64,000 nucleotides of DNA from Nitrosopumilus sp. b3 (lineage in GTDB: Archaea > Thermoproteota > Nitrososphaeria > Nitrososphaerales > Nitrosopumilaceae), in NCBI RefSeq assembly GCF_014078525.1, contig NZ_MU078695.1:1-64000 (forward strand), given 5' to 3'. Shown here piece by piece: positions 74 to 17,319 of this stretch; positions within the stretch are counted from its first letter, which is position 1, and each line of letters starts with the position of its first letter. The notes under the pieces were generated by a model that worked only from the letters and a program-made list of their open reading frames with translations, did no database searches and was not told where the DNA came from. The position numbers were made by a program, and so were the translations under genes.

Positions 74-1303
74 ATGCTCCACCCATCAACTATTTTTTCT
101 AAAATAAAAATTAGTGAAAGCAATTTAAAATTAATAATTTTTTTAGGATTCGCAATGTATTTTCTTGTACTTTATGAAATGTTTCCCCAATATCTATTTG
201 ATGAGCAATATGTTCTTTTTACTTTAGTTTTACCACTAGTTGCTGTAGTAGTTGGAATAAATTTTAAAAAAATTAATTTAAAAAATTTATCAATCAAAAA
301 TTTATCAGTAAAAAACATCTCCATTAAAGGAAAGGGGAGTGATAAAAATAATTCCAAAGTTGAAACTGGAAATCAAATTGAAGAAACAAATTCCGAAATT
401 GCTGGAAATTCTGAGATTGATGCTTTGCTATCAGGTGCAGACTCAAACAAAGATTCAGGAATGTCAGAAATGGAAGCATTGCTAGCAAAAACAGAGGAGG
501 GAGGAAAAGAAAAGAAAAGTTCTGAGATCGATGCAATGATAGCAAAAACAGAGGAGGGAGGAAAATCCGAAGAAAGTACAGGAGGAAATTCAGAAATCGA
601 GGCATTATTGGCAGGAGCAGAAGCAAATACAGATGATAGTTATTCAGATTCTTCACTAGATAACTCAGACACAGAATTAATTATAATGGAGAAAATGGAG
701 CCAATTGAAAATGATATACAGACCCTAAAAACAGATTTTGACCAGTTTAAGCAAGATCTTACTACAGTTAAAGAAGAAGTAGAGATTCTTTCAAATTCTT
801 TTGAGAGCACATTAACTGATATCAAATTGTTGACTACAGATATGAACAATCCGCTAAACTTTATGAAGGAAGATGCACCGTTTAAAGAAAATATTCAGAC
901 AATTGATGTTGATGCATTAGTCCAAAAACCATCAAGCACTACAGATTCCAATAAATCAGATTCACAAAAACAAGAACCAGTTGTGCAAGAACCAGTTGTG
1001 CAAGAACCAGTTGTGCAAGAACCAGTTGTGCAAGAACCAGTTGTGCAAAAAGTTGAAGAAGATTCAAATTTACCTGAAGATGTCATTACTCTAGTAGATG
1101 AATTATCAAGAGATTTCGTTCCAGAAGAAGTGTTTGAGTTAGCAAAAGTACACTGTAAAACTTTGAATATTACAATTGATGAGAAGCAATTAAAACAATT
1201 TATCGATAAAAAAAATAATTCAACCGACAATCCCAAAGATAATGAAGAAAAATCAGATATGGAGAAGATGTTGGCAAAAACAATTGAAAATGAGGTGAAC
1301 TAA
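74..1303 (+). CDS. Membrane-anchored ArlC-like archaellum motor protein with repeated EIDALL motifs
   Basis: This 409-aa protein has two hydrophobic helices (about residues 20-37 and 45-62), a basic juxtamembrane stretch with N-[LI]-S-[IV]-K repeats, a long acidic linker, an ArlC-like coiled segment (about 206-262, ending in an NP motif) and a small helical C-terminal part (333-378). The linker carries four copies of an S-E-[IM]-[DE]-A-[LM]-[LI] motif (residues 112-181) and a diverged fifth at 394-403. A perfect EPVVQ pentapeptide repeat lies at 301-325. Euryarchaeal ArlC/D/E proteins are soluble and link CheY/CheF to the motor; this one is tethered to the membrane. An RBS (aggagag) precedes the ATG. 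It overlaps arlG by one base. The ArlC assignment is by similarity and position. Confidence 0.68.
   Translation: MLHPSTIFSKIKISESNLKLIIFLGFAMYFLVLYEMFPQYLFDEQYVLFTLVLPLVAVVVGINFKKINLKNLSIKNLSVKNISIKGKGSDKNNSKVETGNQIEETNSEIAGNSEIDALLSGADSNKDSGMSEMEALLAKTEEGGKEKKSSEIDAMIAKTEEGGKSEESTGGNSEIEALLAGAEANTDDSYSDSSLDNSDTELIIMEKMEPIENDIQTLKTDFDQFKQDLTTVKEEVEILSNSFESTLTDIKLLTTDMNNPLNFMKEDAPFKENIQTIDVDALVQKPSSTTDSNKSDSQKQEPVVQEPVVQEPVVQEPVVQEPVVQKVEEDSNLPEDVITLVDELSRDFVPEEVFELAKVHCKTLNITIDEKQLKQFIDKKNNSTDNPKDNEEKSDMEKMLAKTIENEVN
407..616 (+). repeat. Four degenerate EIDALL-type motifs in the ArlC-like linker
   Basis: The four encoded motifs are NSEIDALLSG (residues 112-121), MSEMEALLAK (130-139), SSEIDAMIAK (149-158) and NSEIEALLAG (172-181). 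Two of them are followed by the same DNA, gcaaaaacagaggagggagg, at about 483 and 541, which points to duplication. The motif resembles the LSQxEIDALL peptide at the N terminus of bacterial FliM that binds phospho-CheY. The resemblance is seen; the function is inferred. Confidence 0.7.
974..1048 (+). repeat. Perfect 15-bp tandem repeat, five copies (EPVVQ)
   Basis: The unit gaaccagttgtgcaa occurs five times without a mismatch, encoding EPVVQ five times inside the ArlC-like protein. Identical third codon positions imply recent expansion by slippage. Copy number changes in whole units would keep the frame and only alter linker length. Confidence 0.95.
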
Positions 1304-6321: not shown

Positions 6322-7689
6322 ATGACATCACAATCAATTGAAATTATCGATGATAAACAATCAGAAATTAAATCAAATGAGACAAAGTCCTCAAATGATG
6401 AAAAAATTACATCAAAAGTTTTACGAACATTCGATGAAGCAGTAATTGCTTCCCAGCAGTTAAGCGATACAGTATTAGAATTAGAGTCTGCCACAAAAAG
6501 TCAAACCAGTGGAATTGAAGAAGTGTCTCAATCATTGCAATCAATTGCATCCGCTATTCAAGGAGTTGCATTAAATGCAAATAAAGCAATGAATATGATG
6601 AAGGAATCAGAAAAAATTTCACAAGTAATCAGTTCAGATGCAGAAAAAGGAATGAATAAGATGGATAGTATGAAATCAATTGTTTCAGAGTCATCAAAGG
6701 ATGTTCAGAAATTAACTTTGGAGCTTGCTAAAGTTGATAATATGACTGGATTTATCACTCAAATTGCAGAACAGACAAATTTATTGGCACTAAATGCCGC
6801 AATAGAGGCAGCAAGAGCAGGGGATGTTGGAAGAGGGTTTGCAGTAGTTGCAGACGAAGTAAGAAGGCTAGCAGAAAATTCTAAAAAGGGTGCAGAAGAC
6901 ATATCAGAATTAATATCATCATTAAAAGACTCATCAGATAAAACTACAGACAGTATTCAAAAAGGAAACAGTATAGTTCAGGATGCACATGAAGTGATTA
7001 CAAATATCCTAATAGCAATAAAAAATATTTCAACATCAATGACACAAGTTGTTGATCAAATGCAAGAAATTTCAGCAGCCACAGAACAAGTATCAAGTGG
7101 GACAGAGGAAGCTACTGCGGCAAGTGAAGAAGTTCTTTCAGTTGCACAAACAAATCTGACCAGTTTTTCAGATATTGCACAAGCACAAGAAAAAGAAACA
7201 AGAATTCTAAAAGATGCAAATAATTCAGCTAAAACACTGGAGGAAATTGTAGATGTCATAGATGCAACAACTGTCATAACTACAACAGACACAGATGGAC
7301 TAAGTGAGTATACAAATAAAGTCTTTTTAGACATTACAAAAATTCCAAAAGAAAAACAAAAAGAAGAAATGTATAAAATATTCAAATTAGATTGGCATGC
7401 TAAATCATTTTTAGACAAATTATGGAAAAAAATTTCTAGTGGAGAGGTATTTCAGGGATATGTAAGAAATATTGCATCAGATAAAAGTGCATACTGGCTT
7501 AAAACAACAATTAGTCCAACATACGATAAAAATAATAAAATCAAAGGTTATGTCTGTATCGGGACACCAATTACTGAATTGATGGAGATGATAGGTTTGG
7601 AGGGAGTTTGTAAAGATATTGAAAATGGCAAAAACACAAATCCAGCATTTAAAGGAATTATTAAAAAATTAAAAGAAGGGATTTTTTGA
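6322..7689 (+). CDS. Soluble methyl-accepting chemotaxis protein with C-terminal PAS domain
   Basis: This 455-aa transducer has no membrane helix. The signalling hairpin, with [20 protein letters not shown] (from residue 148) and [10 protein letters not shown], is in the first two thirds. A PAS-like domain (about 310-440, with [20 protein letters not shown]) lies at the C terminus. Most MCPs have the sensor N-terminal, so the order is reversed. It probably senses an internal cue such as redox state and passes it to CheA/CheW. GAAGG is the RBS. The stop overlaps cheW (TGATG). Confidence 0.87.
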
Positions 7690-8255
7690 TGCCTGAAGAT
7701 AAAACATCTAATGAAATGGTACAAGTAGTAACATTTGCAATTACTGAAGAATCCACAAAAAAAGGGAATTATGCAATACCAATTGAGCATGTAAAAGAAA
7801 TCAAAACATTAGGACCAATAACAAACATACCAAAATCAAAATCATATGTAAAAGGAGTTATGAATCTAAGAGGCAAAATCATTCCAGTAATTGATGTAAA
7901 TGGAAAACTTGGAATTTCTGGCAGTAAAGAGCACATTAAACAAAGAATCCTAGTTACCGACATTGACAATGTTTTAACAGGATTGCTAGTGGATGAAGTA
8001 AACGAAGTTCTAAGATTAGATAGAAAAGATATTGAAATCGCACCTCTTGAAGCTTTTGAAGATAGCAGATACATCAGTGGAATAGCAAAAGTTAATGAAA
8101 AATTATATGTTATTTTAGATACACCCAAATTTCTGGAAGAAAATGCGAATGATGTACTACCAAAAGATACTTCACAAGAACTAAGTATAGAAAATGAAAA
8201 AGAAGACAGCATTCCAGAAATTGAAGAAATGATTAAACAAGAAATTCATAATTAG
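7689..8255 (+). CDS. cheW: Chemotaxis coupling protein CheW
   Basis: CheW links the transducer to CheA. The SH3-like core is visible as YAIPIEHVKEIKTLGPITNIP, then VKGVMNLRGKIIPVIDV and LLVDEVNEVL, the hallmark CheW motifs. The acidic C-terminal extension after about residue 150 is not part of the domain. The ATG at 7689 overlaps the MCP stop codon and gives 188 aa; an in-frame TTG three bases upstream is less likely. Confidence 0.92.
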   Translation: MPEDKTSNEMVQVVTFAITEESTKKGNYAIPIEHVKEIKTLGPITNIPKSKSYVKGVMNLRGKIIPVIDVNGKLGISGSKEHIKQRILVTDIDNVLTGLLVDEVNEVLRLDRKDIEIAPLEAFEDSRYISGIAKVNEKLYVILDTPKFLEENANDVLPKDTSQELSIENEKEDSIPEIEEMIKQEIHN

Positions 8256-11095: not shown

Positions 11096-11809
11096 ATGTA
11101 CTTGAAAAACTACGAAATTCAGGAATTAGCGGGGACAATTGAAGAATTCATTACAGAAAAAACATGTTCAGCATTATCTACATTATTGAATGAACCAATT
11201 TCTCATCAAATTTCAATTCCAGAAAATAGAAAATCAGATAAAGCAGAAGTTTCTTTTCCATCCAATGAAATTAAGCTATGCTCTGTAAGATTAAATGGTA
11301 AGGGAGATCTACATATCGAATTACTCTATACTATAAAATTAGAACATGCATTAAACATTGCATCAAAACTACTAGGAACAAAAATTCAGGAATTAGATGA
11401 GATGGGAATGTCTGCTTTACAAGAAGTTGCAAATATTTTAACGGGCTCATTTTTCAACGCATTGTCTGAAAACACAGGGTATCGTATTGATCTATCAACA
11501 CCATCATTCAAAGAAGGTAAATTAAAGGACTTGATAAAAGAACCTACAAAAGATGTAGACAGTTGCCCAAACGATGTAATTATCACAGACATTAGTTTGA
11601 GTGGAGAAAATACAAAAACAGAAATCCATATGATTATAATTCAACATCCAGATCATGCAAAAAAACTAATTTCATCTAAAAATGAAATATTAAATGTAGA
11701 AGACTATGAGAGCAAGTCAAATACAAATTTGCTAGGAGGTAAAAATGATTCCATTGACGAATTAATTGGAGATTATGTTTCAATAGAAAAAATTTCGGGA
11801 GAACCATAA
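11096..11809 (+). CDS. cheC: CheC-type CheY-P phosphatase
   Basis: This 237-aa protein contains one clear CheC active-site motif, E-x2-N in SALQEVANILTG (about residue 105). The first half-site expected of two-site CheC proteins is not recognisable. CheC removes phosphate from CheY and in many archaea works with CheD, but no cheD is in this operon. GGGGATA precedes the ATG. The C-terminal 40 residues are acidic. It overlaps cheR by one base (TAATG). Confidence 0.8.
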   Translation: MYLKNYEIQELAGTIEEFITEKTCSALSTLLNEPISHQISIPENRKSDKAEVSFPSNEIKLCSVRLNGKGDLHIELLYTIKLEHALNIASKLLGTKIQELDEMGMSALQEVANILTGSFFNALSENTGYRIDLSTPSFKEGKLKDLIKEPTKDVDSCPNDVIITDISLSGENTKTEIHMIIIQHPDHAKKLISSKNEILNVEDYESKSNTNLLGGKNDSIDELIGDYVSIEKISGEP

Positions 11810-12685: not shown

Positions 12686-12779
12686 TCTGAGATATTAATA
12701 CAAGTATGAAGATAATATATGATAACATTGAAATCTAGAACAAAAAATAATCATCTAAAATTTGTGGAGTATTTTTAAA

Positions 12780-13157
12780 TTGAGTAGCGGAGTCAAAGTG
12801 TTAATTGCAGATGATGCATCATTCATGAGAACAGTTTTAAAAGATATTTTGAAATCAAACGGACTTGCAACAGATATTGTAGAGGCTCCAGATGGAGTAG
12901 AAGCTGTTCGACAATACATCAATCACAAACCAGACTTAGTTACAATGGATGTAAACATGCCAAAAGCTGATGGAATTCAAGCATTAAAAGGAATAATGAA
13001 AGTAAATCCAAATGCAAGAGTGATAATGGTTACATCAGTTGAACAAAAACATATTGTTCAAGATGCAATGAAATCAGGTGCAAGAGATTACATAATGAAA
13101 CCATTTGATAGGGGAAATGTTGGATTAGTGCTAAATAAAGTACTGAGAACAAAATAA
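12780..13157 (+). CDS. cheY: Chemotaxis response regulator CheY
   Basis: This single receiver domain has the acidic pair in LIADDASFM, the phospho-acceptor Asp in LVTMDVNMPKADG, the conserved Thr in IMVTSV and Lys in YIMKPF. CheY-P signals to the archaellum switch. The TTG at 12780 (reading MSSGVKV) is chosen because GGAG lies 10 bases upstream; an in-frame TTG at 12762 would add six residues outside the fold. It has its own promoter region, separate from cheR. Confidence 0.9.
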   Translation: MSSGVKVLIADDASFMRTVLKDILKSNGLATDIVEAPDGVEAVRQYINHKPDLVTMDVNMPKADGIQALKGIMKVNPNARVIMVTSVEQKHIVQDAMKSGARDYIMKPFDRGNVGLVLNKVLRTK

Positions 13158-15469: not shown

Positions 15470-15838
15470 ATGTCAAAACGAATTCTAGTAGCAGAAGATA
15501 ATAGATTTACTGCCATGCAATATGAAAAAATACTCCAAAGTGGAAATCATGAGGTTGAAATTGCAAAAGATGGGGATGATTGCATTCAGAAATATATCAG
15601 TAGTATGGATGATGTTTCAAAAGAAAGTAAGTTTGATGTGTTGATTTTAGATCATTCCATGCCACAAAAAAATGGGGCAGAAGTAGCATCAGATATTTTA
15701 TCTTTGAATCCAAAGCAAAAAATTATTCTTGCATCAGCATATGCACTATCAACTGAAAGAAATTTTTCAAAATTAAAAGATAGAATATTATTTCTTCAAA
15801 AACCATTCCAACTTTCAAAAATTCTAGAATTAGTTTAG
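15470..15838 (+). CDS. Single-domain response regulator
   Basis: This 122-aa protein is entirely a receiver: the acidic pocket in LVAEDNRF, phospho-acceptor Asp in VLILDHSMP, Ser in LASAY and Lys in FLQKPF. No output domain is attached. It is convergent with the histidine kinase at 15862, its likely phosphate source. It is closely similar in motifs (SAY, QKPF) to the receiver at 17847, suggesting paralogues. Confidence 0.85.
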   Translation: MSKRILVAEDNRFTAMQYEKILQSGNHEVEIAKDGDDCIQKYISSMDDVSKESKFDVLILDHSMPQKNGAEVASDILSLNPKQKIILASAYALSTERNFSKLKDRILFLQKPFQLSKILELV

Positions 15839-15861: not shown

Positions 15862-17319
15862 CTAATTATTTTTTATGCTGTTTTCTATGTCATCTACAAC
15901 TGAATCTTTCCAAGTAAGATCAAAGTCAACTATAGGCAATGCAATTTCAAAGACAGGGTGTCCGTTTTTATTATATGCAGAAATTTTTCCATTATGAGCA
16001 TCAATAATTTTTTTAGATATATACAATCCAAGTCCAAAGCCTGAAATTTTGTAATTTCCTTTAGTTACAAATTTTTTGAAAATTTTTGGAAGGACATCAT
16101 TTGGAATCTCAGGACCGGAGTCACTTATGAAAAGTTTCAATGTTTTTTTATCTTTTAGTAGATTTGTTTGAATTGTAATATCCCCAGTTTCTGTGAATTT
16201 AATACAGTTATCTATAATATTTCTAAGAACCTGTTTAATTCTAGTTTTGTCAAGGTTAATCATAACATCAAGATCAAGCCTAGTCTTTATTGGCACTTTT
16301 CTATCAGGATTAAAATGCTCAGAATCTAGAACTTCAGAAATGATATCATTTATGTTGTTTTTCTCCAGATGTAATTCCAACTCATCATTTTCAATTTTCG
16401 TGAGATCAAGTACATTATTTGCAATATTTTCTAAATTAAGGGCAATGTTAGATATTCCTTCGAGAGCTTCTTGTTTTGAAATTATGCCTGTTTTTGCAAG
16501 TTCAACAAAGCCAAAAATGGGTTGAATCGGACCCTTTAGCTCATGGGATGCAATTGATATAAACTCCTCCCGTTTTTTATCTACTTTTTTTAATTTTTCA
16601 TTTAGTTTTTGAAGATCTTTTGTTTGTGTTTTAATTTCATTTTTGAGATTTTTATTTGTTTGATTGAGAAAGAAGACCAACATAGAGGTTACAACCCCCA
16701 CTAAAATAATCATAGTCCATTGTAAAATCTGGAAATCAACAATTATCTCATCTACAGATAATTTTGAATGTACTGGGATTATCTCAAGCATTTGTTCAAT
16801 ATCTTGGAGTTTTTCAAGTAATTCAAATTGTAAATATTTCAAATTCTCATATTCTAGTAAAAATCCACCAAAATTTCCATCATAAAAATATGATAATGCA
16901 TTTGATGCACTATTTTCATACTCCAAGTGCAAATTATAATACAAATTAACAGTATTTTCAAGTTCGAAGAATTGTTCATTAGCTAAGATTTCATCAATTT
17001 GATGATTATCCAAGATTAATCTATTAAAATCATAAATTTTATTTTTAATTTCAGTATTATATATCCAAAATGTTCCAACACCTACCAAGTTTTCTTCAGA
17101 TTTTAAACTTTCAAATATTGTCATCTGTCTTTCATACTTTACTTTAATATCATCAAAATTAGAAATTTTTTCATTATAATCTAAAATAAAGTTATAATTC
17201 TGATTTATGTCATCCATTGTTTTTATAGTATAAATTGAGACAACTCCCAACAGCAAAATTATCATTGATATACATATTCCAATTCTAAATTGAGAATGAC
17301 TAGAAATCTCTAACAACAT
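15862..17319 (-). CDS. Membrane sensor histidine kinase
   Basis: This 485-aa kinase has TM1 (about 10-32), an extracytoplasmic helical sensor region (33-195), TM2 (about 197-217), a coiled coil, HisKA with phospho-His in SIASHELKGPIQ and a HATPase domain (IIDNCIKFTETGD, ISDSGPE, FGLGLYISKKI). The stimulus is unknown. It sits between three receiver genes and diverges from the one at 17433. Confidence 0.88.
   Translation of the reverse strand: MLLEISSHSQFRIGICISMIILLLGVVSIYTIKTMDDINQNYNFILDYNEKISNFDDIKVKYERQMTIFESLKSEENLVGVGTFWIYNTEIKNKIYDFNRLILDNHQIDEILANEQFFELENTVNLYYNLHLEYENSASNALSYFYDGNFGGFLLEYENLKYLQFELLEKLQDIEQMLEIIPVHSKLSVDEIIVDFQILQWTMIILVGVVTSMLVFFLNQTNKNLKNEIKTQTKDLQKLNEKLKKVDKKREEFISIASHELKGPIQPIFGFVELAKTGIISKQEALEGISNIALNLENIANNVLDLTKIENDELELHLEKNNINDIISEVLDSEHFNPDRKVPIKTRLDLDVMINLDKTRIKQVLRNIIDNCIKFTETGDITIQTNLLKDKKTLKLFISDSGPEIPNDVLPKIFKKFVTKGNYKISGFGLGLYISKKIIDAHNGKISAYNKNGHPVFEIALPIVDFDLTWKDSVVDDIENSIKNN

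Follow-up and report, generated by a model that had tools for sequence, protein, structure and literature searches.

How phosphorylated CheY (CheY-P) is brought to the archaellum motor in an archaeon without CheF is the question raised by this locus. CheF has been described as the link from CheY to ArlCDE, chemotaxis occurs in Thaumarchaeota too (PMC9126983), and CheF was reported to be confined to Euryarchaea (PMC6718144); the same coupling question was posed in a 2025 paper for the CheF-less archaella of Chloroflexota (PMC12488501). The stretch analysed here, referred to as the window, comprises 64,000 nucleotides of Nitrosopumilus sp. b3 (NZ_MU078695.1, positions 1 to 64,000), and its genes run in the order archaellin end, ArlC-like protein, arlG/F, arlH, arlI, arlJ, MCP, CheW, CheB, CheA, CheC, CheR and CheY. 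An earlier note on this DNA, made from the sequence alone, had remarked that no CheF-like gene is visible, and this holds beyond the window: CheF (PF04283) is missing from the entire genome, while it was detected in the control genomes. A diverged CheF was likewise not found with PF04283, although a very diverged form cannot be excluded. The same search returned no CheF in any of the 400 class genomes (high quality in 220 cases), nor in 22 CheA-bearing Thermoproteota outside it, with the control Euryarchaeota detected in both cases. The CheA-bearing Thermoproteota tested comprise 55 genomes within the class and these 22 outside, all without CheF.

The ORF lying directly 3' of the archaellin C-terminus (bases 1-62) and 5' of arlG/F, H, I and J encodes a protein of 409 aa. 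Its two N-terminal hydrophobic helices lead into a polar linker, after which come the coiled coil, the EPVVQ tract and, at the C-terminus, a small helical domain:

74-1303, + strand: putative ArlC/D/E (ArlX)-like membrane protein, archaellum switch/scaffold (ORF, 409 aa)
116-265, + strand: two N-terminal hydrophobic helices, residues 15-64, predicted membrane anchor (sequence; AlphaFold2 helices 15-36, 38-42 and 44-64)
410-430, + strand: motif copy 1, SEIDALL (AlphaFold2 helix 115-119, in a disordered linker)
464-484, + strand: motif copy 2, SEMEALL (AlphaFold2 helix 133-141)
521-541, + strand: motif copy 3, SEIDAMI (AlphaFold2 helix 150-157)
590-610, + strand: motif copy 4, SEIEALL (AlphaFold2 helix 173-183)
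662-868, + strand: coiled coil ending in the signature FExTLxDxK...NPLNFM, residues 197-264 (AlphaFold2 helix 197-255)
974-1048, + strand: five EPVVQ spacer repeats, copy number differing between species (sequence)
1253-1273, + strand: diverged fifth motif, SDMEKML, near the C-terminus (AlphaFold2 helix 392-405)

The label "ArlC-like", which the earlier note had given to this protein, rests on its position and on distant homology with ArlX, FlaC and ArlD/E, not on a direct family match, as no hit to the Pfam models for ArlX and ArlC/D/E (PF24151, PF05377 and PF04659) was obtained. The protein occupies the place expected of ArlC/D/E or ArlX proteins, between archaellin and arlG/F, and its homologues are found at the equivalent position in arl loci across the whole class. 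Among these, a Nitrososphaera homologue scored 3.7e-6 against Pfam ArlX, just under the cut-off, a relative matched Arch_fla_DE at the cut-off (2.6e-4), and weak ArlX matches were seen for six of ten family members. Compared with the ArlCDE/ArlX proteins of these families, it shares the position in the arl locus, membrane helices and a coiled coil as in ArlX, the NPxNF(M/I) signature, and distant homologues that match ArlX or ArlD/E, whereas it adds the motif-bearing linker and the EPVVQ tract and fits none of the models. The coiled coil with FExxLxDxK...NP(L/I)NFM is the best-conserved region of the family. On synteny and a chain of homology, and without a direct family match, the product of 74-1303 is taken here as a putative thaumarchaeal ArlC/D/E (ArlX)-like protein. 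A review (PMC8978795) described the ArlCDE counterpart of Thaumarchaeota as "yet to be identified"; an HHpred study had earlier detected diverged FlaC/D/E in this group (PMC4858521). The tandem spacer of this family evolves fast, with units such as EPVVQ, APEQL, EPVHET and EPVA in 5 to at least 16 copies (window and loci L003, L004, L005, L006 and L008), many more of them in L003 and L004 than here; its sequence differs among species and its make-up remains similar.

Four copies of S-E-[IM]-[DE]-A-[LM]-[LI] and a diverged fifth had been read in this protein by the earlier note, and all five are present at the coordinates listed above. When the linker residues were shuffled, the strict motif appeared as a single copy in 56 of 200,000 shuffles and never twice, as against four copies observed. 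A degenerate DNA pattern for [DE][IML][DE][AS]xx matched 38 sites in the whole genome versus 12 for the reversed control, and the only cluster of such sites fell within the ArlC-like protein. The fifth motif recurs in relatives as SDMEKML (L003) or SEIEGLL (L004). The predicted helices at the motifs have pLDDT values of only 30-50 and can be regarded merely as a hint, the rest of the linker being of low confidence as well. The orthologue alignment that the earlier note had proposed bore out the expectation that the motif is conserved and the linker is not: in four orthologues with four copies each (the pairs being non-independent), motif codons showed 90% amino acid identity and a pN/pS of 0.09, compared with 58% and 0.52 for the intervening linker. 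Loss or scrambling of the motif in close homologues, which would have spoken against the idea, was not encountered, since all full-length Nitrosopumilus orthologues keep it.

The motif is carried by 23 genomes from at least five genera, namely Nitrosopumilus, Nitrosotenuis (g28) and the genera labelled g30, g32 and g36, with 1 to at least 6 copies in the motif-bearing relatives and variable linkers; the g28-type form reads GGxN[SA]ELDALLAG, and a variant GNKELDDIISG occurs in two MAGs (nzgw15 and MnTg01). No trace of it was found in the homologues from Nitrosotalea (15 genomes), Nitrososphaeraceae (six, Nitrososphaera) and Nitrosocaldaceae (six, Nitrosocaldus), nor in the homologue from one odd g28-labelled genome (G244), and in 20 che loci from other chemotactic Thermoproteota the top motif score was 11.0, none being convincing. 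It is thus a marker of one clade and not of thaumarchaea in general. CheF is absent from Nitrosotalea, Nitrososphaera and Nitrosocaldus as well as from 22 other chemotactic Thermoproteota, and no motif was detected in those of their homologues or loci that were examined, so that absence of CheF alone does not demand the motif; these relatives need another route, and the motif is one answer rather than the general one. Two further matches were rejected: a Nitrosotalea ORF adjoining arlJ with DIDALI was recognised from its sequence alone as a PurK-like enzyme, and SSEEIDALI in MCPs falls within their conserved signalling region and is attributed to chance. The open-access literature searched yielded no description of this motif from an archaeon.

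In bacteria, the N-terminal peptide of FliM is the docking site for CheY-P, which it contacts through the alpha4-beta5-alpha5 groove of CheY. The ArlC-like copies match the E. coli FliM N-terminus MGDSILSQAEIDALLNG (K-12 record), in most copies including the small residue and the glycine after the core, and E. coli FliM scored 12.5-16.6 bits against the profile of the archaeal peptides. What characterises FliM_N and FliY_N peptides, an xEIDALL-like core and a short helix in a flexible segment, is met by the linker peptides. FliM_N (E. coli LSQAEIDALLNG) and the archaeal peptides have in common the core E-I-D-A-L-L followed by a small residue, often Gly, and a short helix predicted in a disordered part of a protein belonging to the motor switch. 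They differ in that FliM bears a single N-terminal copy and the ArlC-like proteins 1 to 6 internal ones, that no LSQ precedes the archaeal core, and that the archaellum motor is unrelated to the flagellum; the ArlC-like protein is a membrane protein without FliM domains, neither the middle (CheC-like) nor the C-terminal (SpoA/FliN-like) domain being detected with Pfam and NCBIfam. So short a sequence does not allow a decision between convergence on FliM and borrowing from bacteria. We propose that these peptides represent a FliM/FliY-type CheY-P docking code placed on an unrelated motor, a reading to which we assign a probability of about 0.76, with binding, its dependence on phosphorylation and an effect on rotation all being inferred.

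A related motif, overlooked by the author of the earlier note, is located at the C-terminus of a second protein of the locus:

11096-11809, + strand: CheC1, CheC/CheX/FliY-type CheY-P phosphatase homologue with a C-terminal motif tail (profiles, model)
11744-11770, + strand: degenerate motif NDSIDELIG in the CheC1 tail (aligned with GGGNSEIDALLAG and with GGQNSELDALL in orthologues)

CheC1 fulfils both marks of a CheC/CheX/FliY phosphatase, the CheC fold and the [S/D]xxxExxN helix. It matched Pfam CheC (4.9e-12) and NCBIfam CheC (6.5e-17) and FliY (3.6e-9), its model resembles T. maritima CheC (1xkr), FliY (4hyn) and the CheX of a CheX-CheY complex (3hzh), and the catalytic SxxxExxN helix is intact (SALQEVAN). 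Beyond the folded core the model shows a disordered tail with a final helix at 218-234. The window's own tail peptide is weak (below 12 bits), while elsewhere the tail reads GGGNSEIDALLAG...SNSEIDALLN...TNSEIDALLQ (G160), GGQNSELDALL (Nitrosotenuis) or NSELDSLV (g32 and g36). When every ORF of the loci collected was scored with a profile of 32 ArlC peptides, 12 matches of at least 15 bits lay outside annotated ArlC, and all were CheC save one unlabelled ArlC copy (L185). A second profile, built from 19 Nitrosopumilus ArlC peptides only and scanned against 4,030 distinct ORFs of arl/che loci, recovered the ArlC of other genera and the CheC tails with up to 34 bits; the remaining 3,889 ORFs had a mean of -3.3 (SD 4.7), and the top true outsiders were an ArlH at 16.2 bits (GNEEIDRQLAG) and a next match at 13.6. 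CheC, through its C-terminal tail, is essentially the sole other protein that an ArlC-trained profile recovers from arl/che loci, and this sharing is the strongest evidence obtained here. The tail motif was present in 16 of 16 motif-clade genomes versus none of 23 scored outside; in Nitrosopumilus sp. Nsub the ArlC motif is present and the CheC tail absent. At the second core position both proteins have mainly Ile or Met in Nitrosopumilus and g30, whereas the residue found there in g28, g32 and g36 is Leu. A second CheC paralogue (CheC2) with the phosphatase helix and no motif tail is found next to CheY in many loci (L089, L090, L091, L098-L101, L105 and L112).

Bacterial FliY couples a CheC-type phosphatase fold with an EIDALL peptide. 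CheC1 of the motif clade resembles FliY, CheC and CheX in fold and SxxxExxN helix, and FliY in carrying a CheY-docking-type peptide as well, whereas its peptide is C-terminal and present in 1 to 3 copies, it has no FliN domain, and it is not known as a motor component. Since the only other motif-bearing protein of the locus is a CheY-P phosphatase homologue, the CheY-docking reading gains independent support: two unrelated folds, both expected to meet CheY-P, carry the same peptide, and without CheY docking this is difficult to account for, although binding remains inferred. One may object that the peptide docks some other partner, such as another receiver domain, CheD, ArlH or a hub joining ArlC and CheC, and that the FliM likeness is accidental. 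The match to E. coli FliM indeed spans only about eight residues, another receiver protein is encoded within the same locus (15470-15838), and Halobacterium CheF binds CheC2 and CheD besides CheY (PMC6718144). We consider this unlikely, as CheC1 belongs to the CheY-P phosphatase family whose FliY has an EIDALL peptide, so that two expected contacts of CheY-P share the peptide, and no other known partner of EIDALL-type peptides was found.

The proposed ligand is encoded further downstream:

12762-13157, + strand: CheY, proposed ligand (Response_reg 8.3e-28; the start may be the TTG at 12780)

This CheY closely resembles that of T. maritima, for which a crystal structure with a FliM N-terminal peptide exists (4iga, 1.1e-30), and the groove of the window's CheY departs from that of E. 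coli at several positions, e.g., K119 to V. All CheYs of motif-positive genomes have Tyr106, Met99, Leu118, Asn121 and Lys122 (E. coli numbering), and those of motif-negative genomes vary at 99, 118 and 121. With few changes, which are moreover confounded with clade, this residue pattern can be called suggestive only. Co-change of CheY and peptide was not counted as evidence: sites 99, 118 and 121 split motif-positive from motif-negative genomes and site 108 splits the Ile and Leu clades, but the Ile and Leu clades differ in 13 of 130 columns anyway. Just past the che genes, the receiver-only protein at 15470-15838 lies beside a membrane histidine kinase (15862-17319), and a similar receiver protein is present in L086, L095 and L133.

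A further peptide of this kind was noticed in the tail of CheW (7686-8255):

8214-8234, + strand: PEIEEMI in the CheW tail, possible third CheY-docking peptide (tail comparison)

CheW tails of the motif clade follow P-E-[IL]-x-x-[IVL]-[IVF] (L086, L089, L091, L095 and L099-L103, with PPELAAVF in Nitrosotenuis), a pattern found in none of 20 CheWs outside the clade, and show the same Ile/Leu split as ArlC and CheC. CheA comprises an Hpt domain (19-111) and a dimerisation domain (151-210), with not enough space left for a CheY-binding P2 domain, and the CheW peptide may serve as a stand-in CheY-docking site for such a CheA.

In the CheA tree, all motif-positive genomes except Nsub form one clade (SH-aLRT 100), on which the CheC tail requires one change and the ArlC motif two, too few events for an independent-pairs test. 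The co-occurrence of ArlC and CheC peptides is therefore deep conservation after an essentially single joint origin and not repeated co-evolution. Outside this main clade, a few Nitrosopumilaceae harbour strongly diverged arl/che loci, L123 (G244) and L092/L134 (G048/G039), a pattern suggestive of replacement or transfer of the locus.

The analysis demonstrates that the motif exists and is selectively conserved, that CheC1 shares it and that CheF is absent; how these elements would work together is our inference. The ArlC-like protein would have its N-terminus in the membrane and its coiled coil in the archaellum switch/scaffold, while its flexible cytoplasmic linker would display a number of short amphipathic helices like those of FliM_N and FliY_N (xEIDALLxG). 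CheY-P would dock one of these through its alpha4-beta5-alpha5 groove, as on bacterial FliM, and docking would concentrate CheY-P at the motor and signal the switch directly without CheF; CheC1 would capture CheY-P by the same tail peptide and end the signal, as FliY does in bacteria. The peptides would thereby take on the job of euryarchaeal CheF (PF04283), namely linking CheY-P with the ArlCDE switch complex, albeit by another surface, as CheF contacts CheY via alpha1 and loops near the phosphorylation site and not via alpha4-alpha5 (PMC9126983). Alternatively, the ArlC peptides might bind CheY-P for termination or storage, as a sink uniting CheY-P and CheC at the motor, with an undetected adaptor throwing the switch. 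Relatives without CheF and, where examined, without the motif imply that another coupling route exists somewhere, and the motif sits in a flexible linker, distant in sequence from the conserved C-terminal domain; nevertheless, no candidate adaptor was seen in the motif clade and in Euryarchaeota the role of ArlCDE as switch site is established (PMC9126983), which makes a mere sink quite improbable in our judgement. A view of the repeats as neutral sequence of low complexity, comparable with the EPVVQ tract, might be suggested by their disordered, repetitive setting and varying copy number. It is hardly tenable, and the selection data (pN/pS 0.09 vs 0.52 for the linker) rule it out as main explanation, the four copies differing mostly at synonymous or conservative positions and the motif being common to CheC and kept across genera.

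The CheY-P docking code on ArlC is thus the reading that we prefer. Its broader form, in which one code across ArlC, CheC and CheW (the last perhaps replacing the P2 domain of CheA) arose in a single ammonia-oxidising clade, replaced coupling by an adaptor and is convergent with FliM, FliY and CheZ, is possible and is offered only tentatively. None of the genomes of chemotactic Thermoproteota tested has CheF, which leaves their steering unexplained except in the motif clade. There, a CheY-docking-type peptide on both a motor protein and a phosphatase suggests, with binding as yet inferred, how these ammonia-oxidising archaea may steer without CheF. If true, the same short peptide would have been adopted twice, connecting a single response regulator to two rotary motors that are unrelated to each other.
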